From positions 1,066,501 to 1,130,500 of the forward strand of contig NZ_CP102428.1 of the NCBI RefSeq assembly GCF_024652905.1: a stretch of 64,000 nucleotides of DNA, read 5' to 3'. A program made the position numbers and the translations under genes. The notes under the pieces were generated by a model, which searched no databases, had not been told where the DNA came from, and saw nothing but the letters and a program-made list of their open reading frames with translations. Of this stretch, positions 28,032-42,330 are shown in pieces. The stretch comes from Pseudomonas oryzihabitans. GTDB taxonomy: Bacteria; Pseudomonadota; Gammaproteobacteria; Pseudomonadales; Pseudomonadaceae. Numbering within the stretch: the stretch's first letter is position 1; every line of letters starts with the position of its first letter.

Positions 28032-28567
28032 TTATTCAGTGGCTTGGTTGGTAGGTGCGCTGGAGGTGTTTCCTTGTGTTGACGTCTGAGTAGCTACGGC
28101 ATCTAGTTTTTGTGCGGTTTCACTGTTTTGATAGCCGGTTAGGACTACACCGAACAGGCAAAGAATTAATCCGGCTGCATTGATGGTAGAAATATTTTCT
28201 TTTAGAAATATAATTCCAATAAAAGCCAGGATAACGTTGACAGCCGTCCCGGTTAGGATATTTCCGGTGCTTAGGCTCCAGCCGCTTCTATACATGAGAA
28301 GAAAGCCCAGTCCATCAGCAGGATACAGAGGGCAATTCCTGCTTGTAGTCCATTCAGTTGTCTTATGCTAGTGCGTAATATGTCACTCCCTATGAAGAAT
28401 GGCAGAAAGAATGCAGTCAGAATCACGATAGCTATATAGATTCCCAAGATGGAGACCAGAGGATTGACCCCTTCGGGGATTCTCTTCATCAAGGTGTGAT
28501 AGCCTATGGTCCCGGATATGGCAAGGACCGCGGAGAAGTAGAAAAGTGGATACTCTTTTCCAGTCAT
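28032..28567 (-). pseudogene. Frameshifted EamA/DMT-type membrane protein
   Basis: Two overlapping minus-strand frames (28567 to 28271, and 28295 to 28032) together encode one hydrophobic protein of about 178 residues with four to five membrane segments. The first reads LFYFSAVLAISGTIGYHTLMKRIPEG ... ALCILLMDWAFF; the second continues LMYRSGWSLSTG ... NVILAFIGIIFLKE ... GLILCLFGVVLTGY. One base is missing near 28290-28297; restoring it rejoins the frames. The single EamA-like half suggests a small drug/metabolite transporter. AAGGA precedes the ATG. Real loss or sequencing error cannot be told apart here. Confidence 0.75.
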
Positions 28568-28730: not shown

Positions 28731-29627
28731 GTGTTCGCTAAACTTCCATTGACGGCGCTGAGGGCATTCGAGTCTGCCGCTAGGCTTGGAGGATTCAAAT
28801 CAGCAGCTGAAGAGCTATTCGTTACTCCTGCGGCTATTTCACTCCAGATAAAAAATCTCGAAAAGTATTTAGGTGTCACGCTGTTCGCAAGAACGTCAAG
28901 TAGCGTCGTGTTGACGATAGAGGGAGAAAAGCTGTTCTCAGGTACGGGGCGAGCATTAGCTGATTTAGCGTGTTCCGTCGAGCAATTTACGGGTCGGTGC
29001 GCCACCAAGGTTGTCAACGTTTCTACAACCTCTGCCTTCGCGGCGTTATGGCTAATTCCGCGGGTTTCGGGGTTTTACGAAAGACATCCGGATATTCAGC
29101 TCAATATAAGAGCCAGCAACGAGTTGGTCGACCTTGCCAGGGATGCTTCGATCGACGCGGCTATTCGATGCGTGCCCGACAATGGGGCCCAGGAGTTGTA
29201 TTCTAGGGAGCTCATGGGTGAAAGGTTTGGAGTCTATTCCTATGCCGGCTGGCAATGCCGAGATCACGAGGTTCCACCGGTGCTGATTAGGGTGCGCTGG
29301 CCGACGCCATCCTCTATTCCGCTGGATTGGGTGGTGTGGTGTAAGGCGGCTGGTCATGAGGATTGGGCTGATCGAAGTCTCTATCGTGAATATGATGATG
29401 AGCATTTCGCCCTACAGGCAGCGACGGCCGGACTTGGCATTGTGTTGGCTAGCACGGTATTAGCTGAGCAAAGCCTCAAGCTAGGTCTTTTAACGCCATA
29501 CAAACCGCATGTCACCCTGCCTGGCCCAACGTATTCAGTCGTCTGCGTGGCAGGTCGAGAGCGTGTGGAGTCTGTGGGTAAATTTTTCGACTGGATTGAA
29601 GGGGAGGCCGAGGCGGCCAGACGTTAA
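28731..29627 (+). CDS. LysR-family transcriptional regulator, GcvA-like
   Basis: A 298-residue LysR regulator: N-terminal winged helix (LPLTALRAFESAARLGGFKSAAEELFVTPAAISLQIKNLEKYLG) and a substrate-binding domain (about 90-290, with DIQLNIRASNELVDLARDASIDAAIRC). The subtype is that of GcvA-like regulators. The start is a GTG with GGAG just upstream. It is divergent from the EamA-like and SnoaL-like genes, which are its likely targets. Base composition is AT-richer than surrounding core genes. Confidence 0.87.
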   Translation: MFAKLPLTALRAFESAARLGGFKSAAEELFVTPAAISLQIKNLEKYLGVTLFARTSSSVVLTIEGEKLFSGTGRALADLACSVEQFTGRCATKVVNVSTTSAFAALWLIPRVSGFYERHPDIQLNIRASNELVDLARDASIDAAIRCVPDNGAQELYSRELMGERFGVYSYAGWQCRDHEVPPVLIRVRWPTPSSIPLDWVVWCKAAGHEDWADRSLYREYDDEHFALQAATAGLGIVLASTVLAEQSLKLGLLTPYKPHVTLPGPTYSVVCVAGRERVESVGKFFDWIEGEAEAARR

Positions 29628-30017
29628 ATTACTTCGCTTATCACTTGGATAAAGCGGAAGCCTCGTTCCTTACGCTGCGATTCTTGGTGCTGGAAGGATG
29701 AAGCAGGTGTAAAAAATTCGTTAGTGATAAAGAGTGCTTCACCAATATCTGATACTTTCTAACTAAGTAATTCAAGCTGCCTGTACCGATCATCAGCCGA
29801 TTTGCCTGAAAGTATCCATGATAGTGCTCCCGCGCCTTGGCTGTTTGTAGATCTAGAAGCCTTGCCTGCTAGTAGGGATAAGTAAGGTAGAGCGCGCGCC
29901 TGTTGAGTCAGATGCTTCACTGAGCGTCACGGACGTCTCGTCTTGCCAGTTGAACCGAGTCCTGGCCCCGGAGAATGGTCACGGCTTGCCCGTGCTGTTT
30001 TTCAGGACTGCCCCTTG
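29628..30017. other. AT-rich gap with no recognised gene
   Basis: Part of a stretch of about 530 bases between the LysR gene and the SfnB-like operon. No credible reading frame or RNA structure was recognised. The right part (30018-30124) carries regulatory sites listed separately. Confidence 0.55.
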
Positions 30018-30030
30018 GACAACAGTTGTC
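30018..30030. promoter_or_regulatory. Inverted repeat, candidate enhancer-binding-protein site
   Basis: GACAACAGTTGTC is a perfect 13-bp inverted repeat. It lies about 80-90 bases upstream of the sigma-54-like promoter, in the range used by enhancer-binding proteins. Confidence 0.4.
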
Positions 30031-30108
30031 TGCTTAAGTGTCTGGTCAGCAACTTCCAGATGCCCGGGTTTTAATATAAATCACTGATAAGTTTTGATTT
30101 TTCGCCGA

Positions 30109-30124
30109 TGGCATAGCTCGTGCT
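30109..30124 (+). promoter_or_regulatory. Sigma-54-like (-24/-12) promoter
   Basis: TGGCATAGCTCGTGCT keeps the invariant GG and GC at the correct 10-base separation and matches most consensus bases. Transcription would start near 30136, about 23 bases before the ATG of the SfnB-like gene. Sulfone and sulfonate genes of P. putida (sfn) are sigma-54 dependent, which fits the downstream content. Confidence 0.55.
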
Positions 30125-30158
30125 CCAGCTTGGGGGTCACCTCCAAGGGAGTCCCTGC

Positions 30159-31385
30159 ATGGCCGTCGCCACCTCGCACAATACCGTTCCCCGTGCCGTC
30201 CCCGAACGTCCTGCCACGCGCTTGCGCGACGCCGCCGAGGCACTCGATGCCGCGGCTGCCCTGGCGGAGGATTTCGCTCGCGATGCGCTCAGTCGTGACC
30301 AGGAGCGACGCCTGCCCTGGGCCGAGATCGAGCGCTTCTCGGCCAGTGGTCTCTGGGCCATCACCGTACCGCGGTCGTTCGGCGGCGCGGGGGTGGGATT
30401 CGGCACCGTCGCCGAAGTCATCGCCCGTATCTCCGCAGCCGATCCCTCCCTGGGCCAGCTACCGCAGAATCATCTGGGCGTGGTCAACAACCTGCTGCTG
30501 ACCGGCAGCCCGGACCAGCAGCGCCACTACCTCGGCCTGGTGCTCCAGGGCTATCGCTTCGGCAATGCCTTCTCCGAGGCGCGCAGCAAGACCGTCACCC
30601 AGTTCGAGACGCGTATCCGCTTCACTGGGGATACCGCCTGGATCGATGGGGAGAAGGCCTATTGCACCGGTGCCCTCTTTGCGCACGTGGTTCCCACGGT
30701 GGCACTGGACGAGGCGGGCCTGGCCCATCTCGCGCTGGTGCCGCGCGATGCCGGCGGCCTGACGGTGATCGACGACTGGGACGGCTTCGGCCAGCGCACC
30801 ACCGCCAGCGGTCGGGTGCAGCTCAAGGGCGTCAGTGTCCGGCGCAGCGCGGTACTGCCCGCCTGGAAGGCGTTCGAGCGGCCGACGGCGGATGGTCCGG
30901 TCTCCCAGATCATCCAGGCGGCGGTGGACGTCGGCATCGCCCGCGGCGCCTTCGCTGCCGCCCTGGCCGCCACCCGGCTGGCGCGGCCCTGGACCGACAG
31001 CGGGCTCGCGCATGGCTGGCAAGACCCACTGAGCCAGGTGCTGATCGGTGACCTGAGCTGGCGTCTGGCCGCCGCCGAGGCCTTGCTGGAAGAAGCCGGC
31101 GTGGCCGTCGACCGGGCGCTGGCGGAGCCGTCCGCGGCCAGCGTCGCCGAGGCTTCGGTAGTGGTGGGACAGGCCAAGGTCGCCTCCACCGAGATCGCCC
31201 TGGCCGCCGCCAATCGCCTCTGCGAACTGGGCGGCACCCGCAGCGTCTCGGCGCGTTTCGGCCATGACCGCCACTGGCGCAATGCCCGCACCCACACGCT
31301 GCACGATCCGGTGCGCTGGAAGTACCACCTGATCGGCAACTATCTGCTCAACGGCGTCGAGCCGCCGCGTCACGCCTGGAACTGA
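30159..31385 (+). CDS. SfnB-family acyl-CoA-dehydrogenase-fold flavoprotein (monooxygenase-like)
   Basis: A 408-residue protein of the acyl-CoA dehydrogenase fold, closest in character to SfnB/DszC-type flavoproteins of sulfur acquisition (LWAITVPRSFGGAGVGFGTVAEVIARISAADPSLGQLPQNH; SEARSKTVTQFETRIRF; DWDGFGQRTTASG; CELGGTRSVSARFGHDRHWRNARTHTLHDPVRWKYH). Such enzymes use reduced flavin and oxygen to oxidise sulfur (DszC: thioether to sulfone; MsuC: sulfinate). AAGGGAG lies 7 bases upstream of the ATG. First gene of a seven-gene operon with a ribose-type ABC importer and an LLM-class monooxygenase. No flavin reductase is encoded nearby. Confidence 0.85.
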   Translation: MAVATSHNTVPRAVPERPATRLRDAAEALDAAAALAEDFARDALSRDQERRLPWAEIERFSASGLWAITVPRSFGGAGVGFGTVAEVIARISAADPSLGQLPQNHLGVVNNLLLTGSPDQQRHYLGLVLQGYRFGNAFSEARSKTVTQFETRIRFTGDTAWIDGEKAYCTGALFAHVVPTVALDEAGLAHLALVPRDAGGLTVIDDWDGFGQRTTASGRVQLKGVSVRRSAVLPAWKAFERPTADGPVSQIIQAAVDVGIARGAFAAALAATRLARPWTDSGLAHGWQDPLSQVLIGDLSWRLAAAEALLEEAGVAVDRALAEPSAASVAEASVVVGQAKVASTEIALAAANRLCELGGTRSVSARFGHDRHWRNARTHTLHDPVRWKYHLIGNYLLNGVEPPRHAWN

Positions 31386-31389
31386 TGCC

Positions 31390-31746
31390 ATGACCGATCT
31401 CGCCCTTGTCACCCACGAAGAACTGACCTTCGCCGAACACCTCCTCCAGCAACTGCGACAGGAACTGCCGAAGGACTCGCGCGCCCAGGACCCGCTGGTG
31501 ATCGCCGCGGTCGGCGATCTTCAGGTGCGCCTGGCCGCGGCGCGCGCCTTGCAACGTGCCAGCGCCGCCGAGGACGGACCGGTACGGCAGATCCAGGCCC
31601 GCCTGGCCGCCGACAGTGCCCGCCAGCTCGCCGCCGACCTGCAGCGGGAATGGCTGGCAGAAACCGTCGCGCACCGCTCAGCCGGCCCGGCCTCCCGTGA
31701 CCTCAAGCGCCTCCTGGGTGAGCACCACCTGACCATCAGCGACTGA
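31390..31746 (+). CDS. Small conserved-looking protein of unknown function
   Basis: A 118-residue, almost wholly helical, soluble protein. The central stretch (LVIAAVGDLQVRLAAARALQRAS) resembles the helical C-terminal part of acyl-CoA-dehydrogenase-fold proteins such as its upstream neighbour, but the protein is far too short to be an enzyme of that family. It begins 4 bases after the flavoprotein stop, so it is clearly co-translated. It could be a partner subunit of the flavoprotein or a shrunken paralogue. Confidence 0.7.
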   Translation: MTDLALVTHEELTFAEHLLQQLRQELPKDSRAQDPLVIAAVGDLQVRLAAARALQRASAAEDGPVRQIQARLAADSARQLAADLQREWLAETVAHRSAGPASRDLKRLLGEHHLTISD

Positions 31747-31761
31747 AAAGAAAGGATTCCC

Positions 31762-32727
31762 ATGGCCCTTCGTACCCTGTTCCGTGCCCTCCTGCTGTTG
31801 CCGCTGTTGGCTACCACCGCCCTCGCGTTTGCGGATGAGGTCCCCTCGCTGGCCGGCAAGCGCATCGCCATCAGCATGACCGGCACCAGCCACTACTTCG
31901 ATCTCAAGGCCTTCCAGGCCCAGGTGGAAGAGGTCAAGCGGCTGGGCGGCACGCCCATCACCCTGGACGCCGGCCGTAACGACAAGAACCTGGTGACCCA
32001 GCTGCAGACCCTGGTGACCCAGAAACCGGATGCGGTGATCCAGACCCTCGGTACCCTGAGCGTGATAGACCCCTGGCTGAAACGCATCCAGGCGGCCGGC
32101 ATCCCGCTGTTCACCATCGATGCGCCGTCCCGGTACAGCCTCAACAACACCACCTCCGACAACGCCGCGGCCGGGCGTGAACTGGCCGAGCAACTGGCCA
32201 AGGACACCGGTGGCCAGGGCGACATCCTGGTCTTCAACGGCTTCCAGGGCGTGCCCGTGTGCGCCATCCGCTACGCCGAGCTGCGCAAGGTGCTCGACGC
32301 CCATCCGGGGCTGAAGATCATCCAGCCCGAGCTGCGCGATGTGATCCCCAATACCGTGCAGGACGCCCGCGGCCAGATCGCCGCGTTGCTCAACAAGTAC
32401 CCCAAGGGCCAGATCGCCGCCATCTGGTCGGCCTGGGACATTCCCCAGCTTGGCGCCAGTCAGGCGCTGATCGAGGCCGGGCGTACCGAGATCAAGACCT
32501 ATGGCGTCGACGGCACGCCCGAGGTGCTGGAATTACTCAAGCGTGACGACAGCCCGGTGGGCGCGGTGGTCGCCCAGCAACCGGCGCTGATGGGCCGCAC
32601 GGCGGTGCAGAACGTCGCCCGCTACCTCGCCGGCGCCCGTGATCTGCCCAAGGAGACCCACGTATCGACCCTGCTCACCACCAAGGCGAACCTGGGCCAA
32701 GTAGCGGCGCTACGGGGTGATCAATGA
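31762..32727 (+). CDS. Ribose-type (CUT2) ABC transporter substrate-binding protein
   Basis: A 321-residue periplasmic binding protein of the RbsB-like family. A signal peptide (about residues 1-24, ending LAFA) is followed by two Rossmann-like lobes (KRIAISMTGTSHYFDLKAFQAQVEEVKRLGG; KPDAVIQTLGT; DIPQLGASQALIEAG; IKTYGVDGTPEVLELL). Relatives bind monosaccharides, AI-2 or related cyclic ligands. It lies 15 bases after the small protein and overlaps the ATPase gene by 4 bases. The ligand is unknown, but the flanking flavin enzymes suggest it is an oxidisable sulfur- or nitrogen-bearing molecule. Confidence 0.87.
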   Translation: MALRTLFRALLLLPLLATTALAFADEVPSLAGKRIAISMTGTSHYFDLKAFQAQVEEVKRLGGTPITLDAGRNDKNLVTQLQTLVTQKPDAVIQTLGTLSVIDPWLKRIQAAGIPLFTIDAPSRYSLNNTTSDNAAAGRELAEQLAKDTGGQGDILVFNGFQGVPVCAIRYAELRKVLDAHPGLKIIQPELRDVIPNTVQDARGQIAALLNKYPKGQIAAIWSAWDIPQLGASQALIEAGRTEIKTYGVDGTPEVLELLKRDDSPVGAVVAQQPALMGRTAVQNVARYLAGARDLPKETHVSTLLTTKANLGQVAALRGDQ

Positions 32728-34262
32728 GCACGGCGGTGCTCGAACTACGGGGCATCGCCAAGCGCTACGGGGCGACCCAGGCGCTGGCGGGTGTCGACCT
32801 GACCCTGAGGGCTGGCGAGATCCATGGTCTGGTCGGCGAGAACGGCGCCGGCAAGTCCACCCTGATCAAGGTGCTCGGTGGCCTGGTGACCCCCGAGGCC
32901 GGTGAGCTGCGCCTGGATGGTCAGTCGCTGCCTGGCGCCGGACCGCGTGAGTTGGCCCGGCGTGGGGTGTCCATCATCCACCAGGAGCGGCTGTTGCCGC
33001 CCAACTTCACCCTGGCCGAGGCCCTGTTCTTCGGCCAGGAGCGGCGCCGCGGCCTGTTGCTGGATCGCCGTGGGCAGGAGCGGGCAGCGGAGCAGCTGCT
33101 GGCCGAGCGCTTCGGCCTGCACTGCCGCGCGCGAACCCGGGTGGCGGACCTGAGCAGCGCTGAACAGCAACTGCTGCAAATCAGCCGGGCGCTGCTGGCT
33201 ACACCCAAGGTGCTGGTGCTCGACGAACCCACCGTAGCCCTGGCCCATGGCGAGGTGGAGCGCCTGCTCAGGCTGCTGCGCGAGTTGCGTGACCAGGGCC
33301 TGGCCTTGCTCTATGTGTCCCACTACCTGCAGGAGGTCGAGCGCCTCTGTGACAGGGCCACGGTGCTGCGGGGCGGCCAGGTGGTGGCGGAAGTCGAACC
33401 CCGCGTTACGCCGGCGGCCGCCATGGCGCGGCTGATGATCAATCGCGAACTCGGCGAGGCCTATCCCAAGGCGCAGACACAGCCCGGCGACGTCCTGTTG
33501 GAAACCCGGCGTCTCGGCCGGCCGGGTGCGTTCGCCAAGGTCGACCTGCAGGTAAGTCGGGGTGAGGTGGTCGGCGTGGCCGGCCTGGTGGGCTCGGGCG
33601 CCAAGGAGTTGCTGAAGACCCTGTTCGGCCTGCTGCCGGTGGCCGAGGGCGAGTTGCTGCTGGAGGGACGTCCGCAGCGGTTCGCCCATCCGCGGGCCGC
33701 GGTGCGGGCGGGGCTGGCGCTGTTGCCGGAGAATCGCCGCCAGCAGGGCGTGGCCCTGGATCTCACCGTGACCGAGAATCTCACTCTGGCCGCCCTGGAG
33801 CGTTTCAGTTGGTTCGGTCTCCGTCGGCCAGGCGCCGAGCGCCAGGCCGCACGACGGCTACGCAAGGCGCTGGACATCCGTACGCCGGACCTGGAGACGC
33901 CGGTGCGTCATCTCAGTGGCGGCAACCAGCAGAAGGTCGCCCTGGGCAAATGGCTGGCCCGCGATGCGCGGCTCTATCTGCTGGACGAACCCAGCGTGGG
34001 CATCGACCTCGCCGCGCGGGCCGAACTCTATCGCCAGATCGCTCGGTTGGTGGAGCAGGGCGCGGGGGTGTTGATCCTGTCGGTGGACCTGCCCGAATTG
34101 CTCAACCTCTGTGACCGCATCCATGTGATGCATCGCGGACGGCTGCTGCCGGCGCGCCCGGCCAGGGAGCTGAGCGCCGAGGAATTGCTGGCCACCGCCA
34201 CCGGCGCGGTGAGACCGGCCGCGGACACGACGGGGAGGGCGGATCTTGGCCTTGCCTCCTGA
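32724..34262 (+). CDS. CUT2 sugar-type ABC transporter ATPase (RbsA-like)
   Basis: A 512-residue protein with two fused nucleotide-binding domains. The first has Walker A GENGAGKSTLIKVLGG and Walker B VLVLDEPTVAL. The second has the degenerate Walker A typical of the family (GLVGSGAKELLKTLFG) but keeps the signature HLSGGNQQKVALGKWLA and LYLLDEPSVGID. It energises the importer made by its neighbours. ATGA overlap with the binding-protein gene and a 17-base overlap with the first permease gene. Confidence 0.92.
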   Translation: MSTAVLELRGIAKRYGATQALAGVDLTLRAGEIHGLVGENGAGKSTLIKVLGGLVTPEAGELRLDGQSLPGAGPRELARRGVSIIHQERLLPPNFTLAEALFFGQERRRGLLLDRRGQERAAEQLLAERFGLHCRARTRVADLSSAEQQLLQISRALLATPKVLVLDEPTVALAHGEVERLLRLLRELRDQGLALLYVSHYLQEVERLCDRATVLRGGQVVAEVEPRVTPAAAMARLMINRELGEAYPKAQTQPGDVLLETRRLGRPGAFAKVDLQVSRGEVVGVAGLVGSGAKELLKTLFGLLPVAEGELLLEGRPQRFAHPRAAVRAGLALLPENRRQQGVALDLTVTENLTLAALERFSWFGLRRPGAERQAARRLRKALDIRTPDLETPVRHLSGGNQQKVALGKWLARDARLYLLDEPSVGIDLAARAELYRQIARLVEQGAGVLILSVDLPELLNLCDRIHVMHRGRLLPARPARELSAEELLATATGAVRPAADTTGRADLGLAS

Positions 34263-35235
34263 ACCTCTTGCGGCGCCCGCCCTGGGCGGGTGGCTGGATC
34301 TCTGGCGCCACGGGGCGCTGCTGGCCTTCGCGCTGATCGCCATTCTGCTCGCCTGGCGGGCGCCGGGGTTCCTGGGCGGCGGCAATCTCGCCAATATCCT
34401 CGCCCAGGCCGCCATCCCGGGCATCCTGGCGCTGGGCCTCACCCTGGTGATCGTCGGTGGGGGTGGCAACGTCCTGGCCGGGGGCCTGGATCTGTCGCTG
34501 GCGGCCAATCTCGGACTCTGCGCGGCGGTCCAGGCGACCCTGGTCAACGCGGGGTACGGTGCGTCGCTGGCCATCGGCCTGACCCTGGCCTGCGGCCTGG
34601 TGGTGGGGGCGGTCAACGGCCTGGCGGTGACCTTGCTGGGCCTGCCGCCGTTGCTCACGACCCTGGCCAGCCTCAATGTGGTGGCCGGCCTGGAACTGGT
34701 CTTGAGCGAAAATACCGTGCTACCGGCCAGCGCGCCCTGGCTGGATCTGCTCGGGATGGGCAGCCTGCTGGGCATCCCGGCAGCAGGTTGGGTACTGCTG
34801 GCGACCGCCCTGGTGCTGGCCCTGCTGCTTCAGCGTACGCGCTATGGCCTGCGGTTGGCCGCGGTGGGCGATCATCCCGAAGCGGCGCGCGCCGCCGGCC
34901 TGCCGGTACGTACGCTGGTGTTCTCCAGCTATCTGCTGGCCGGCGGCTGTGCGGGCCTGGCCGCGCTGCTGTCAGTCGCCTGGTTCAGCGGCAGTACGCC
35001 CGGGTCGGGCGAATTGCTCCTGCCGGTGGTGGCCATCGCCTTTCTCGGCACGGTGTTTTCCTGGCGCTCCCAGCCGAGCGTCGGTGGCACCCTGCTGGCG
35101 GCGCTGCTGGTGGGCATGCTCGGCAATGGCTTCCAGTTGCTCGGGGTGAGCAGCTTTCTGGTCAATGGCGTCCAGGGCACCTTGATCCTGCTGGTGGTGG
35201 CGGCAGCGAGTCTGCGCCAGGAGGGCAACCGATGA
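34246..35235 (+). CDS. CUT2 ABC transporter permease 1
   Basis: A 329-residue RbsC-like permease with eight to ten membrane segments. Conserved blocks are AIPGILALGLTLVIVGGGGNVLAGGLDLSLAAN and VGDHPEAARAAGLPVRTLVFSSYLLAGGCAGLAALL. The start is a TTG with GGGAGGG upstream, inside the end of the ATPase gene. Its stop overlaps the second permease by 4 bases, so the two probably form a heterodimeric channel. Confidence 0.88.
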   Translation: MALPPEPLAAPALGGWLDLWRHGALLAFALIAILLAWRAPGFLGGGNLANILAQAAIPGILALGLTLVIVGGGGNVLAGGLDLSLAANLGLCAAVQATLVNAGYGASLAIGLTLACGLVVGAVNGLAVTLLGLPPLLTTLASLNVVAGLELVLSENTVLPASAPWLDLLGMGSLLGIPAAGWVLLATALVLALLLQRTRYGLRLAAVGDHPEAARAAGLPVRTLVFSSYLLAGGCAGLAALLSVAWFSGSTPGSGELLLPVVAIAFLGTVFSWRSQPSVGGTLLAALLVGMLGNGFQLLGVSSFLVNGVQGTLILLVVAAASLRQEGNR

Positions 35236-36185
35236 GCGCGACCCTTTCTCTCGGCCGCTCGGGCCTGCGCCTGGCCTTGCCGTTGCTGTTCCTGACCCTG
35301 GTGGTGATCTTCGCCCTGGCCGCGCCTGGCTTTCTCAGCCAGGGCAACCTGCTCAGCCTGCTGCTGAACAATGGCCTGGTGCCGGCGCTGGTGGCCCTGG
35401 GGCTGACCTACGCCATCGCCGCGGGCGGCATTGATCTTTCCGTGGGTATCGCCCTGGACCTGGCGGCCTTCGGTTGCATCGCCTTGCTCAACGCCGGCTG
35501 GCCGCTGGCCGTGGCGCTCGCCGGTGGCCTGGGGCTCGGGCTGCTGGTCGGCCTGGCGAATGCCCTGCTGGTGGCCGGCGTGGGGCTGTCACCTTTCCTC
35601 GCCAGCCTGGGGCTGCTGTTCATCGGCACCAGCTTGCAACAACTGCTGTCCGAAGGCGGCCTGCCGCTGTATCTGAGACCCGAGGTCAGGCCCGCCGCGA
35701 GCAGCTGGCTCGGCGTCTCGGCGGCGGTCTGGACCGTGTTGCTGCTGGCCATGCTCTACGGTCTGGTGCTGGCCCGTGGGCGCCTGGGCCGCGCCTTGCT
35801 GGCCCTGGGCAATCAGCCATTGGTGGCACGTTACTCGGGGCTGGCGCTGCGGCGCCTGGCGCTCTGCACCTGCCTGGCCACCGCCCTGGCCGCAGCCGTG
35901 GCAGGCATCCTGCTGGCGCTGCGCATCGATGCCTATGTGCCGCTTTCGGGCAATGCCTATCTCATCAATGGCATCGGCGCTGTCTTCATCGGCGCCAGCC
36001 TCAATCGCCACGGCCGGCCCAATGTGCCCGGCACCCTGCTGGGCGTGCTGCTGCTGGCGGTGGCCGCCAACGGCCTGCTGCTGGTGGGCTGGAATTTCTA
36101 CTGGCAACAGGTGGCCACCGGCCTGCTGATCCTCTTGGTGCTGACCCTCAATCAACTGGCCCGGCGCCGCGACGCCGTCCATTAG
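35232..36185 (+). CDS. CUT2 ABC transporter permease 2
   Basis: A 317-residue RbsC-like permease (LTYAIAAGGIDLSVGIALDLAAFG, LALGNQPLVARYSGLALRRLALCTCLATALAAAVAGILLALRID, GIGAVFIGASLNRHGRPNVPGTLLGVLLLAV). It starts at ATGA within the preceding stop. It pairs with permease 1; two distinct permeases are typical of the erythritol, rhamnose and AI-2 branches of this family rather than of ribose importers. Confidence 0.88.
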   Translation: MSATLSLGRSGLRLALPLLFLTLVVIFALAAPGFLSQGNLLSLLLNNGLVPALVALGLTYAIAAGGIDLSVGIALDLAAFGCIALLNAGWPLAVALAGGLGLGLLVGLANALLVAGVGLSPFLASLGLLFIGTSLQQLLSEGGLPLYLRPEVRPAASSWLGVSAAVWTVLLLAMLYGLVLARGRLGRALLALGNQPLVARYSGLALRRLALCTCLATALAAAVAGILLALRIDAYVPLSGNAYLINGIGAVFIGASLNRHGRPNVPGTLLGVLLLAVAANGLLLVGWNFYWQQVATGLLILLVLTLNQLARRRDAVH

Positions 36186-36193
36186 GAGCCCCC

Positions 36194-37597
36194 ATGCCCC
36201 GTGAAATCCGCCTCAACGCCTTCGACATGAATTGCGTGGCCCACCAATCCCCCGGACTCTGGCGCCACCCGCGCGACCGCTCCTGGGAGTACAAGGATCT
36301 CGAATACTGGACGGAGCTGGCGCAACTGCTCGAACGCGGGCTGTTCGACGGCCTGTTCATCGCCGACGTCCTCGGCCTCTACGACGTCTATGGCGGCGGC
36401 CCTGAGGCTACCCTGCGCGAGGCGACCCAGGTGCCGGTCAACGACCCCCTGGCGCTGATCACCCCCATGGCGGCGGTGACCCGCCACCTGGGTTTTGGCC
36501 TGACCGCCTCCCTGAGCTTCGAGCATCCCTATCCGTTCGCGCGTCGGCTATCCACTCTGGATCACCTGACCAAGGGGCGCATTGGCTGGAACATCGTCAC
36601 CTCCTACCTGGAGAGCGGCGCGCGCAATCTCGGCCAGTCCGCCCAGGCCGACCACGATGCTCGCTACGACTACGCCGAGGAATACCTGCAGGTGGTCTAC
36701 AAGCTGCTGGAAGGCAGTTGGGAAGAGGGCGCGGTGCTGCGCGACCACGCGTCCGGTCGCTTCACCGATCCGGCCAAGGTGCATCCCATCGGCCACCATG
36801 GCCGGCACTTCCAGGTGCCGGGCTATCACCTCTGCGAGCCTTCGCCCCAACGCACGCCCGTGCTCTATCAGGCCGGCGCCAGCAGCCGTGGGCGGCAGTT
36901 CGCCGCCGAGCACGCCGAATGCGTCTTCGTCGCCGCCCCGTCGAAGACGGTGCTCAAGCAGACCGTGGCCGACATCCGCCGCCGCGCCGCCGAGGCCGGT
37001 CGCGATCCGCGCCAGGTGCTGATCTTCAATCTGCAGACGGTCATCGTCGGCGAGAGCGATGCCCAGGCCCGGGCCAAGTGGCAGGACTACAGGGGCTACG
37101 TGAGCTACGAAGGCGCCCTGACGCTGATCTCCGGCTGGACCGGCATCGACTTCGCCGCCTACCGCCCGGACCAGGTCCTCAAGCACCTGCACACCAATGC
37201 CATCCAATCGGCGGTGGAAGCCTTCTCCACCGCCGATCCCGGCAAGCAATGGACGGTGCAGGAACTGGCCGACTGGGTCGGCATCGGCGGCTTCGGGCCG
37301 CTACTGGTAGGCAGCCCGGCGACCGTGGCGGACGAGTTACAAAGCTGGGTCGAGGAGACCGACGTCGATGGCTTCAACCTGGCCTATGCGGTGACCCACG
37401 AGACCTTTGCCGACGTGGTGGACTTGCTGGTTCCGGAGCTGCAGCGACGGGGTGTCTACAAGCAGGCTTACCAAGCCGGCACGCTGCGCGAAAAACTCGG
37501 CGGCGCTGGGCCGCGGCTGCTAGAGAACCACCCGGCCGCCGGCTATCGCGACCTGGCGCGGCAACGGGAGGAAAGCGCGATACGGGTGCTGGCCTAG
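36194..37597 (+). CDS. LLM-class flavin-dependent monooxygenase (NtaA/SnaA/DszA family)
   Basis: A 467-residue bacterial luciferase-like enzyme of the NtaA/SnaA/DszA group: MPREIRLNAFDMNCVAHQSPGLWRHP, LFDGLFIADVLGLYDVYGG, DPLALITPMAAVTRHLGFGLTASLSFEHPYPFARRLSTLDHLT, GRIGWNIVTSYLESGARNLG, VLYQAGASSRGRQFAAEHAE. Members use FMNH2 from a separate reductase to cleave C-N bonds (nitrilotriacetate) or C-S bonds (dibenzothiophene sulfone). AGGAG precedes the ATG, 8 bases after the permease stop. Its operon with a DszC-fold flavoprotein suggests a two-step oxidation. Confidence 0.88.
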   Translation: MPREIRLNAFDMNCVAHQSPGLWRHPRDRSWEYKDLEYWTELAQLLERGLFDGLFIADVLGLYDVYGGGPEATLREATQVPVNDPLALITPMAAVTRHLGFGLTASLSFEHPYPFARRLSTLDHLTKGRIGWNIVTSYLESGARNLGQSAQADHDARYDYAEEYLQVVYKLLEGSWEEGAVLRDHASGRFTDPAKVHPIGHHGRHFQVPGYHLCEPSPQRTPVLYQAGASSRGRQFAAEHAECVFVAAPSKTVLKQTVADIRRRAAEAGRDPRQVLIFNLQTVIVGESDAQARAKWQDYRGYVSYEGALTLISGWTGIDFAAYRPDQVLKHLHTNAIQSAVEAFSTADPGKQWTVQELADWVGIGGFGPLLVGSPATVADELQSWVEETDVDGFNLAYAVTHETFADVVDLLVPELQRRGVYKQAYQAGTLREKLGGAGPRLLENHPAAGYRDLARQREESAIRVLA

Positions 37598-37606
37598 TCC
37601 GCCCCG

Positions 37607-38164
37607 TTATTCCGCCTTTTCATAGACGGCAAAGCCCCAGTAGCCACTGCCGCTCTTGCTGACTTCTACCCAGCCTTGACGTAGCAACTGCCTGGCGATC
37701 AGTCGATTCATGAAGCCGTGGCCCAGCAGCAATACGCTGTCCCGGCCACTGACCAAGGCGGCGAGCTTGTCTGCTGCCTGTCTCGACCGCTGTTTCGCCT
37801 GGGCATAGGACTCGGAGTCTTTCGTCACTCCGCACAGCCAGAGCAGACGAAAGACGAAGGCCCAGGTGAAGGGTGACAGGCGTAGGAGCGGAACGCGCAC
37901 CACGGGCAATGCCGCCTCGCGAAAGGTCGTGTCCTCGCTGGCTGGCGCCTTGCCCAATGCGGCGAGAGAAGTCAGGGCGCGCGGGGCAGAGCTGGTGGTG
38001 GCCAGGCCGATATCCCTGGTCGCGGCTATCGCCTCCTGAGTGGCGGCATCCGTGCCTATCTCGGACCGATCATAGTCCGCGATCCAGTCGACCATGTCTC
38101 GCGCGGCGACGGCACGGTAGTTCTCCAGCGCCGGCTTGCCGTGGCGCATCAGTATGATTTTCAT
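37607..38164 (-). CDS. Histidine phosphatase (phosphoglycerate mutase) superfamily protein
   Basis: A protein of about 185 residues with the RHG catalytic motif (MKIILMRHGKPALE, H8) and the second-half GHGFMNRLIARQ. Hydrophobic stretches near the middle (LLRLSPFTWAFVFRLLWL) are unusual and could mediate membrane contact. The frame is open to 38218, but the ATG at 38164 places the RHG motif at the canonical position. The substrate is unknown. It converges on the monooxygenase gene with 9 bases between stops. Confidence 0.82.
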   Translation of the reverse strand: MKIILMRHGKPALENYRAVAARDMVDWIADYDRSEIGTDAATQEAIAATRDIGLATTSSAPRALTSLAALGKAPASEDTTFREAALPVVRVPLLRLSPFTWAFVFRLLWLCGVTKDSESYAQAKQRSRQAADKLAALVSGRDSVLLLGHGFMNRLIARQLLRQGWVEVSKSGSGYWGFAVYEKAE

Positions 38165-40018: not shown

Positions 40019-40128
40019 CGGGGGACGAGACCGGGGTCCGTTGGCCACGAGACGACAGCCTGCGTATCACCCGTAGCCCTTTGTCCGGATAATGGCGGCC
40101 AATCTGTCTCCAAACCGGAATGCTGTGC

Positions 40129-42330
40129 ATGGAAATCAAGGTCAATTTTCTCGACAACCTGAGGCTCGAGGCCAAGTTCGACGACTTCTCGGTGATCGCC
40201 GATCAGCCCATCCGCTACAAGGGGGACGGCTCGGCCCCGGGTCCCTTCGACTATTTCCTGGCGTCCTCGGCGCTCTGCGCGGCCTATTTCGTCAAGCTCT
40301 ACTGCCAGACCCGCGACATCCCCACCGACAACATCCGCCTGGCGCAGAGCAACATCGTCGACCCGGAGAATCGCTACAAGCAGACCTTCAAGATTCAGGT
40401 CGAGCTGCCCGCGGATCTCTCCGACAAGGATCGCCAGGGCATCCTCAGATCCATCGACCGCTGCACGGTAAAGAAGGCGGTGCAGGCCGGTCCCGACTTC
40501 ATCATCGAGGCGGTGGAGAGTCTGGACGCCGATGCCCAGGCCCTGCTGTTGCCCAGCGATACCGGCAGCGAGACCTACATCCCCGGCAAGGACCGGCCGC
40601 TGGAAGAGACCATCGCCAAGCTCTCCGGTATCCTCGCTAACCTGGGCATGAAGGTGGAGATCGCCTCCTGGCGCAACATCGTGCCCAACGTCTGGTCGCT
40701 GCACCTGCGCGATGTGCAGTCGGCGCTGTGCTTCACCAACGGCAAGGGCGCGACCAAGGAAGCGGCCCTGGCCTCGGCGCTGGGCGAATTCATCGAGCGC
40801 CTCAACTGCAATTTCTTCTACAACGACCAGTACTGGGGCGAGGCCATCGGCAACGCGGCCTTCGTCCACCACCCCGACGAGCGCTGGTTCCAGCCCGGGC
40901 CCAAGGACGCGCTGCCCCGGGAGATCCTCGACCGCCATTGCCGCAAGCTCTACGACCCGGAAGGCGAATTGCGCGCCTCGCACCTGCACGACACCAACTC
41001 CGGCAACGTGGCGCGCGGCATCTGCGCGCTGCCCTTCGTGCGCCAGTCCGATGGCGAGGTGGTGTACTTCCCCTCGAACCTGATCGAGAACCTCTACCTC
41101 AGCAACGGCATGAGCGCTGGCAACACCCTGGCCGAAGCCCAGGTGCAGTGCCTGTCGGAGATCTTCGAGCGGGCGGTGAAGCGCGAGATCCTCGAAGGCG
41201 AGCTGGCCCTGCCGGATGTTCCTGACGAGGTGCTGGCCCGGTTTCCCGCCATCGTCGACGGCATCCGCGGCCTGGAAGCCCAGGGCTTTCCGGTGCTGGT
41301 CAAGGACGCCTCCCTGGGTGGCGAATTCCCGGTGATGTGCGTGACCCTGATGAATCCGCGCACCGGTGGGGTGTTCGCCTCCTTCGGCGCCCATCCGCGC
41401 CTGGAGATCGCCCTGGAGCGCAGCCTCACCGAGCTGTTGCAGGGCCGCAGCTTCGAGGGCCTCAACGACCTGCCGCAGCCGACCTTCGAGAGCCAGGCGC
41501 TGATGGAGCCGAACAACTTCGTCGAGCACTTCATCGACTCCAGTGGCCTGGTCTCCTGGCGCTTCTTCAGCGCCAGGGCCGACCATGATTTCGTCGACTG
41601 GGATTTCTCCAGCGAGGGCGAAGACGCCACCGCCCAGGAGGCCGCCACCCTGTTCGGCATCCTCGCCGAACGGGATCTGGAAGCCTACATGGCGGTGTAC
41701 GAGGAGTTGGGCGCGCCGGCCTGCCGCATCCTGGTGCCCGGCTATTCGGAGATCTATCCGGTCGAGGACCTGATCTGGGACAACACCAACAAGGCGCTGG
41801 CGGTGCGCGAGGACATCCTTACCCTGCATCAGCTGGACGATGCGGCCCTGGAATCCCTGCTCGAACGCCTGGACGATACCCAGGTGGACGACTACACCCG
41901 CATCGCCACCCTGATCGGCGTGGAATTCGACGAGAACACCGTCTGGGGCCAGTTGACCCTGCTGGAACTCAAGCTGCTCATCCACCTGGCGCTGCAGCAG
42001 TTCGAAGAGGCCAAGGAAGAGGTCGAGACCTTCCTGCAGTTCAACGACAACACCCTGGAGCGCGGCCTGTTCTACCAGGCGCTCAATGCGGTGCTGGAAG
42101 TCGAGCTGGACGACGAACTGGAACTGGCCGACTTCGAAGTCAATTTCCGCCGGATGTTCGGCGACGAGCGCCTGGACGCTGCCCTGGGTTCGGTCTCGGG
42201 CGAGGTGCGCTTCCCTGGCCTGACGCCCACCAGCCTCAAGCTGGAAGGCCTCGACAAGCACCTGCGGCTGATCGACAGCTATCGCAAGCTGCACGCGGCG
42301 CGGGCCAGGGCGGCTGGGATCGCGCTCTAA
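40129..42330 (+). CDS. ycaO: OsmC-YcaO fusion protein
   Basis: A 733-residue two-domain protein. Residues 1 to about 145 are an OsmC/Ohr-like domain (GDGSAPGPFDYFLASSALCAAYF; C50, C59 and C112, DRCTVKKA). From about residue 155 it matches E. coli YcaO along its length (YIPGKDRPLEETIAKL, ALCFTNGKGATKEAALASALGEFIERLN, PSNLIENLYLSNGMSAGNT, ASFGAHPRLEIALERSLTELLQGR, SSGLVSW), ending in a helical TPR-like region. YcaO proteins bind ATP and activate amide backbones; stand-alone E. coli YcaO promotes RimO-dependent methylthiolation of ribosomal protein S12. The ATG at 40129 is preferred over 40120 because it gives the family start MEIKVNFLDN. Confidence 0.9.
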   Translation: MEIKVNFLDNLRLEAKFDDFSVIADQPIRYKGDGSAPGPFDYFLASSALCAAYFVKLYCQTRDIPTDNIRLAQSNIVDPENRYKQTFKIQVELPADLSDKDRQGILRSIDRCTVKKAVQAGPDFIIEAVESLDADAQALLLPSDTGSETYIPGKDRPLEETIAKLSGILANLGMKVEIASWRNIVPNVWSLHLRDVQSALCFTNGKGATKEAALASALGEFIERLNCNFFYNDQYWGEAIGNAAFVHHPDERWFQPGPKDALPREILDRHCRKLYDPEGELRASHLHDTNSGNVARGICALPFVRQSDGEVVYFPSNLIENLYLSNGMSAGNTLAEAQVQCLSEIFERAVKREILEGELALPDVPDEVLARFPAIVDGIRGLEAQGFPVLVKDASLGGEFPVMCVTLMNPRTGGVFASFGAHPRLEIALERSLTELLQGRSFEGLNDLPQPTFESQALMEPNNFVEHFIDSSGLVSWRFFSARADHDFVDWDFSSEGEDATAQEAATLFGILAERDLEAYMAVYEELGAPACRILVPGYSEIYPVEDLIWDNTNKALAVREDILTLHQLDDAALESLLERLDDTQVDDYTRIATLIGVEFDENTVWGQLTLLELKLLIHLALQQFEEAKEEVETFLQFNDNTLERGLFYQALNAVLEVELDDELELADFEVNFRRMFGDERLDAALGSVSGEVRFPGLTPTSLKLEGLDKHLRLIDSYRKLHAARARAAGIAL

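Follow-up and report, generated by a model that had tools for sequence, protein, structure and literature searches.

The nearest described relatives of the locus reported here are the Sfn/Msu genes of Pseudomonas (SfnG, MsuC, MsuD, SfnR) and Dms1-3 of Acinetobacter baylyi, which likewise combine group D and group C two-component flavin monooxygenases with an SfnR-type sigma-54 activator (PMC13352529). The locus itself is a run of seven co-directional genes on the plus strand, at positions 30159–37597 of a 64,000-nucleotide stretch of Pseudomonas oryzihabitans DNA (contig NZ_CP102428.1, positions 1,066,501 to 1,130,500; hereafter, the window) from a genome of 5.2 Mb, and encodes SfnB, a 118-residue protein, a complete ATP-binding cassette (ABC) importer of the CUT2 class and a monooxygenase of the NtaA/DmoA family. 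As far as the available part of the source describes them, the substrates of Sfn/Msu and Dms1-3 are small volatile or sulfonate compounds, and neither a CUT2 importer nor a detached SfnB domain accompanies their enzymes (PMC13352529); homologs of SfnG, of an MsuC-like gene and of the SfnR-like activator have the same promoter layout as the window operon. Other systems share parts of it: (i) DmoA (PDB 6ak1), to which the window monooxygenase is close (570 bits over 461 residues), uses a DmoB-type reductase, and no DmoB-like reductase is encoded among the seven genes; (ii) the Dsz 4S pathway employs the same two folds, but both matches (SfnB to DszC, 182 bits; monooxygenase to DszA, 270 bits) lie well below those to the nearest families, no DszB-like gene is present among the seven genes, within which alone it was sought, and the window operon has an importer; and (iii) the sulfo-ASMO pathway for sulfoquinovose likewise joins a sugar-like sulfur compound, an ABC importer and C–S cleavage by a flavin monooxygenase, but in the available part of its description the enzyme is of the SsuD type and acts on a sulfonate, and a reductase handles the sugar product (PMC9594981), whereas the window operon combines SfnB with a DmoA-type enzyme and lacks such a reductase. 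The CUT2 binding proteins 4wt7, 3l49 and 4ry8 have the same fold as that of the window, and their database listings show no tie to sulfur starvation. Among open-licence papers we found no title or abstract describing this operon, which is weak evidence of absence; its parts come from known families, and what is new is that a CUT2 importer and a detached SfnB domain are joined to the enzymes.

Judged by sequence comparison, the operon is a conserved, sulfur-associated uptake-and-oxidation unit. We regard sulfur scavenging as very likely its role, and think it reasonably probable that it is, more particularly, a sulfur-starvation operon for the uptake and oxidative desulfurisation of an organosulfur compound, the exact substrate aside. 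Its features are as follows.

30018..30030, plus strand: upstream half-site region GACAACAGTTGTC, a putative activator site, with CAACA at 30020–30024, beginning 89 bases before the −24 element
30109..30124, plus strand: sigma-54-type −24/−12 element TGGCATAGCTCGTGCT, score 7.0, 50 bases before SfnB
30159..31385, plus strand: SfnB, acyl-CoA-dehydrogenase-fold (group D) flavin monooxygenase, 408 residues (TIGR04022, 580.5 bits; best solved relative DszC, 182.5 bits)
31390..31746, plus strand: 118-residue predicted detached homolog of the SfnB C-terminal helical domain (alignment, family hidden Markov model (HMM), adjacency, helical-bundle model)
31762..32727, plus strand: CUT2-type periplasmic binding protein, 321 residues (Peripla_BP_4, 165 bits; 4wt7, 450.6 bits)
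32724..34262, plus strand: CUT2-type ATPase with two nucleotide-binding domains, 512 residues (ABC_tran, two stretches)
34246..35235, plus strand: CUT2-type permease A, 329 residues (BPD_transp_2, 92.8 bits)
35232..36185, plus strand: CUT2-type permease B, 317 residues (BPD_transp_2, 87.3 bits)
36182..37597, plus strand: NtaA/DmoA-family flavin mononucleotide (FMN)-dependent monooxygenase (TIGR03860, 572.8 bits; DmoA 6ak1, 569.9 bits)

All seven reading frames are open, and the genes are spaced by gaps of 4 and 15 bases, followed by overlaps of 4, 17 and 4 bases; the monooxygenase starts either at 36182, overlapping permease B, or at the ATG at 36194 chosen by the gene caller. A first-pass annotation of the window had described seven genes with gaps of at most 15 bases, several of them overlapping, and a complete CUT2 importer, both of which are confirmed, the former by the open reading frame (ORF) coordinates and the latter by the Peripla_BP_4 match, the double ABC_tran ATPase and BPD_transp_2 in both permeases. 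The SfnB start at 30159 is preceded by AAGGGAG, while an upstream GTG at 30120 is an unlikely alternative because it lies inside the −12 element.

The seven-gene arrangement is more than chance, since the order is the same at all six other binding-protein loci of the genus. At E 1e-20 or better, the binding protein was detected in 11 of 198 genomes of the family, seven in the window's genus (its own genome included) and four in two other genera; a class-wide search of 369 genomes at 1e-80 matched only the window's own genome. A survey of named genomes yielded 65 importer loci, 60 in Pseudomonas and the rest in Azotobacter, Stutzerimonas, two Burkholderiales metagenome-assembled genomes (MAGs) and one gammaproteobacterial MAG. 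Their neighbourhoods are of several types: (i) SfnB, small gene, importer and monooxygenase, as in the P. oryzihabitans group; (ii) importer, divergent SfnB-like gene and then SfnB, small gene and monooxygenase, as among relatives of P. syringae; (iii) importer with an SfnB-like gene and a Liv-type operon; (iv) importer beside SfnG, MetI/MetQ-like or SsuA-like genes; and (v) importer alone, with 21 of the 65 loci adjoining a row of lipopolysaccharide-type genes. The importer is not confined to the seven-gene operon, and in many Pseudomonas it is apart from the enzymes: an SfnB-family, monooxygenase, SfnG or MetI gene lies within the fetched stretch at 31 of the 65 loci, and none does at 34.

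Outside the family, a genome of another class of the phylum (G300, probably Alphaproteobacteria by its kinship label) carries binding protein, ATPase, both permeases and monooxygenase in the window's order, with identities of 67% (BLAST) for the binding protein and 72% for the monooxygenase; an SfnB (518 bits) is encoded there as well, some 5 kb away from the binding protein. The 20-kb stretches around the importers of four further relatives (G239, G507, G438 and G247) contain no SfnB or monooxygenase; a monooxygenase relative of 60–72% identity is encoded somewhere in the genomes of G239, G300, G507 and G438. At L043, L048, L054, L067, L082 and L092, a VirK-family gene lies near the importer, beside genes that by eye resemble a xylose operon (XylF, XylA, XylR).

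Importer and monooxygenase are also strongly associated across genomes, an association whose absence the first-pass annotation had named as refuting its reading. Of the 198 family genomes, 52 have the monooxygenase at E 1e-200 and 26 have it at an identity of at least 78%; orthologs at the latter level are present in 11 of 11 importer genomes vs 15 of the 187 others (chance values of 2e-11, and of 8e-5 without the window's genus, both uncorrected for kinship). A genome search made for 30 of the 34 importer loci that lack sulfur neighbours covered 29 (not L036), and the monooxygenase was detected in 28 of these 29 genomes, the miss being L086. Its identity was at least 78% in 27 of them (one a partial match, one with an internal stop) and 65% in one. 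L089, on a 7-kb MAG contig, was left out of this search; L050, L066 and L072 correspond to genomes G054, G087 and G141, each of which has the monooxygenase. Together with the common promoters described below, this co-occurrence supports the proposal that the importer and the monooxygenases belong to one sulfur-scavenging unit.

All 20 genomes inspected among these 28 contain a module of SfnB, small gene and monooxygenase, from which Liv genes are missing in eight and at least partly kept in 12. The same module was present in seven inspected g14 genomes lacking the importer, where it is followed in six by the gene c80 and Liv genes, the latter being absent in one (L156). The product of c80, of about 300 residues, is encoded between the monooxygenase and the Liv genes and persists where these are gone (L143, L150, L152–L154, L190–L209); by eye it resembles a shortened AMP (adenosine monophosphate)-ligase, and it has no Pfam match. 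The presence or absence of Liv genes beside the modules indicates that the enzymes can be served by different importers, and is at most suggestive of the CUT2 importer replacing the Liv transporter.

The operon, the stand-alone importers and the unlinked modules all have a predicted promoter of the sigma-54 type and, about 88 bases upstream, the half-site CAACA. A −24/−12 element scoring 7.0 precedes SfnB at seven of seven loci of the window's group (base rate, 0.0078 per 250 bases), and CAACA lies at −86 to −89 from this element in the window and in L021–L025; in L026, where the SfnB start is miscalled, alignment reveals the site. Stand-alone importers have this layout upstream as well, often in the form TGTTG-N6-CAACA, and in Azotobacter CAACA is found near −88 before an MsuC-like gene, which is followed by an SfnR-like activator and c80–Liv genes, and at −80 before SfnG. 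Where sulfur neighbours are lacking, 30 of the 34 importer loci have both promoter (score at least 6.5) and half-site, one the promoter alone and three neither; before the binding protein at the 31 loci with sulfur neighbours, the corresponding numbers are none with both, five with the half-site and a weaker promoter, one with the promoter alone and 25 with neither. At the five window-group loci no promoter is expected at this position, as it stands before SfnB. All 20 unlinked SfnB genes are preceded by the half-site.

As a control, we compared strong with weaker (6.0–6.5) promoter sites across the 65 loci plus the window. CAACA accompanies 35 of 39 strong sites before sulfur genes, 11 of 16 before other genes and two of 29 before no called gene, vs 14 of 59, one of 22 and five of 245, respectively, for the weaker sites. 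The 11 strong sites before other genes precede AMP-ligase/Liv operons, the SsuA-like gene c91 and, once, c126, and the two before no called gene (L033, L094) are probably SfnB promoters with a miscalled start. The window's own genome encodes an SfnR-like activator just after SfnB-like genes, with 68% identity over residues 1–360 of 367 to the Azotobacter activator, which itself follows the MsuC-like gene and is called SfnR from context and size rather than from a curated model. In sulfur-starved P. aeruginosa, SfnG, SfnR1 and MsuCDE rise, according to the available part of the report (PMC12581299). Two sulfur-gene-rich stretches were seen in the window's own genome at about 1650–1710 kb of G000:C1 (L106, L108), with several monooxygenases and SfnG, Liv-type, MetI/MetQ-like and SsuA-like genes.

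The flavoprotein that heads the operon, previously annotated as having an SfnB/DszC fold, is a true SfnB by the TIGR04022 cut-off (580.5 bits vs 430.9, covering model positions 1–391 of 391), whereas it reaches only 206.7 of the 850 bits needed for the DszC equivalog model. In the alignment it keeps the histidine corresponding to DszC H391, which we take to be the catalytic one. The name SfnB denotes a sulfur-acquisition enzyme, whose substrate is, to our knowledge, not settled.

The adjacent small gene, left by the first-pass annotation as encoding an unknown protein, proved identifiable: by alignment, family HMM and adjacency, its product is a detached SfnB C-terminal domain. It matches no Pfam family and scores just 18.3 bits against TIGR04022 (model positions 268–310). 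It aligns to the last ~150 residues of SfnB, keeping the GDLQ region and lacking the RNARTHTLHDP stretch that carries the histidine aligned to DszC H391; small proteins outside the window's group also keep the PLRWxYQ-GN-LNG of the SfnB C-terminus. The family HMM, built from 29 sequences, also picks up SfnB C-termini, at E 2e-13 to 3e-19 among the matches listed. The small gene, as detected by this HMM, adjoins 34 of 47 SfnB gene entries, comprising all 34 with at least 62% identity to the window SfnB and none of the 13 with 45–59%, a border seen after the fact. Because six entries duplicate other loci (L022/L031, L023/L034, L024/L032, L025/L035, L026/L033, L027/L039), the distinct counts are 29 of 29 and none of 12. 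It adjoins none of the 27 entries of a second SfnB-like cluster. A chance ORF is ruled out by its conservation beside SfnB. The predicted structure is a helical bundle (predicted local distance difference test, pLDDT, 85.3) for which no Foldseek match reached E 0.001, the best, a DszC relative, having E 0.089; since this match is not significant, support from the fold is weak and the identification rests on sequence. The small protein is probably a non-catalytic partner subunit of SfnB, and we put the chances of a physical complex of the two at about even.

The monooxygenase falls clearly within the NtaA/DmoA family (TIGR03860, cut-off 279.7 bits), as the earlier NtaA/SnaA/DszA-family assignment implied, but its description as DszA-like did not hold, the nearest solved relative being DmoA, followed by an alkane monooxygenase (489 bits) and DszA. 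Identification as DszA proper or as an alkanesulfonate enzyme was rejected because the scores are too low, those against the alkanesulfonate monooxygenase models (76.8 of 510 and 70.7 of 518 bits) being below the cut-offs. DmoA is generally described as cleaving a C–S bond, giving methanethiol and formaldehyde.

As to the importer's ligand, none of the binding protein, ATPase and permeases reaches the cut-off of a CUT2 equivalog model among the matches listed (for the ATPase, the best 25 of 190), and the ATPase scores 424 bits against the AraG model (cut-off 689). The nearest solved relatives of the binding protein, 4wt7 (451 bits) and 3l49 (401 bits), are both called sugar (ribose) binding proteins; identities to the binding-protein model are 61% for 4wt7 (over 291 residues), 55% for 3l49 and 25% for 4ry8. 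We understand 4wt7 to hold allitol. The title of 4ry8 is 5-methylthioribose transporter, an analogy that would show only that the CUT2 binding-protein class can take a thiosugar. Presumed pocket positions, chosen by analogy with the ribose-binding protein, hardly change among the sampled binding proteins of Pseudomonas, Burkholderiales and G239/G300, which form one supported group in a 14-row tree, apart from those of G507, G438 and G247. For a hydroxylated (sugar- or polyol-like) substrate we estimate a little under an even chance; a thiosugar or thio-polyol is plausible. At L036, L039 and L041, tandem binding-protein genes (83–86% and 72–73% identity to that of the window) precede one ATPase/permease pair, as if one importer had two receptors.

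In the mechanism that we propose, sulfate limitation would lead an SfnR-type activator to switch the operon on, and the CUT2 importer would bring in an organosulfur compound that is hydroxylated (sugar- or polyol-like). The sulfur of this compound would be oxidised by SfnB, with the small protein as probable non-catalytic partner subunit, using FMN reduced by an enzyme encoded outside the operon, after which the DmoA-like enzyme would break the C–S bond and the released sulfur would pass to cysteine. In favour of this, three group D enzymes of A. baylyi, not named as SfnB in the available part of the report, oxidise dimethyl sulfide (DMS) to dimethyl sulfoxide (DMSO), and two of them carry it on to dimethyl sulfone (DMSO2) (PMC13352529). 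That the mechanism amounts to a widespread pseudomonad thiosugar or thio-polyol route, with a starvation CUT2 importer, a hetero-oligomeric SfnB (catalytic subunit plus free C-terminal domain) and a C–S-cleaving DmoA-like enzyme, is a tentative suggestion of which we are doubtful.

Several observations weigh against the proposed mechanism. In the available part of the A. baylyi report, DmoA is described as turning DMS into DMSO, and no group C enzyme oxidised DMS in the screen (PMC13352529). The proposed order of the enzymatic steps is therefore our inference. The solved binding proteins closest to that of the window carry sugar-binder annotations, and many enzyme modules have a Liv-type transporter of their own, so that the importer may serve something else, given that this transporter is kept in 12 of the 20 unlinked-importer genomes. 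The co-occurrence counts ignore kinship. Unlinked SfnB promoters score low (6.0 in 19 of 20, 7.0 in one), and in the window's own genome the combined promoter pattern matched once, at this operon, as did the backward control, so that the argument from regulation rests on other genomes.

Of the alternatives, the one that survives best keeps sulfur scavenging but has as substrate a small non-sugar thioether, sulfoxide, sulfone or methionine-like compound, to which the CUT2 binding protein has been retargeted; we consider this possible, though doubtful. Consistent with it, the monooxygenase has DmoA as its nearest solved relative, SfnG and MetI/MetQ-like genes stand beside the importer or the enzymes at several loci, and Liv-type transporters, whose usual cargo is amino-acid-like, often serve the enzyme module; yet the nearest solved binding proteins are of the sugar type, and the presumed pocket is almost unchanged across Pseudomonas, Burkholderiales and more distant relatives. 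A second alternative, in which the importer's cargo is free of sulfur (an ordinary sugar, a polyol or some other compound) and its link to a sulfur operon is one of co-regulation or insertion only, is unlikely. The sugar-type family of the importer, the 34 of 65 loci with no sulfur gene in the stretch, and G247, where the importer relative sits among genes that by eye resemble sugar catabolism and the genome has no monooxygenase relative at 1e-100, would fit such cargo, but by family assignment none of the seven operon genes is sugar-catabolic, co-occurrence and common promoters persist even when the genes are unlinked, and the order of importer and monooxygenase is the same in another class. 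Nitrogen scavenging through C–N cleavage of an amino-sugar or aminopolycarboxylate, C–N cleavage having been the main alternative named in the first-pass annotation, is highly improbable, for while the family model is named after NtaA and sigma-54 promoters often serve nitrogen genes, the nitrilotriacetate (NTA) and ethylenediaminetetraacetate (EDTA) monooxygenases are far from the window's enzyme (187 and 164 bits, vs 570 for DmoA), its partner is a true SfnB, and the half-site is common to SfnG, the MsuC-like gene and SsuA-like genes and presumably differs from the NtrC site.

Returning to the proposed sulfur-starvation operon, its arrangement ties SfnB to one importer, one likely C–S cleavage enzyme and one helper protein, so that knowing what this one binding protein takes could reveal the substrate on which the whole system acts. 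If correct, the proposal would extend organosulfur uptake by one transporter class and give the group D flavin monooxygenases a split-subunit form, in soil- and plant-associated pseudomonads. Should the thiosugar route also hold, sugar-type importers with split group D monooxygenases would constitute their own branch of organosulfur assimilation.

Around the operon, no sigma-70 promoter was found in 29600–37900 (shuffles, 0.6), and terminator-like sites number six in this interval, vs 3.4 ± 2.3 in shuffled sequences. A GcvA-like LysR gene (28731–29627) lies 531 bases upstream, with no tie to the operon seen in the data examined. Farther upstream, at 28032–28567 on the minus strand, ORFs of 87 and 98 residues overlap in different frames and look by eye like a broken gene for a small multidrug- or EamA-type transporter. 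Beyond the operon, at 40120–42330, a 736-residue ORF resembles, by eye, an OsmC-YcaO type protein.

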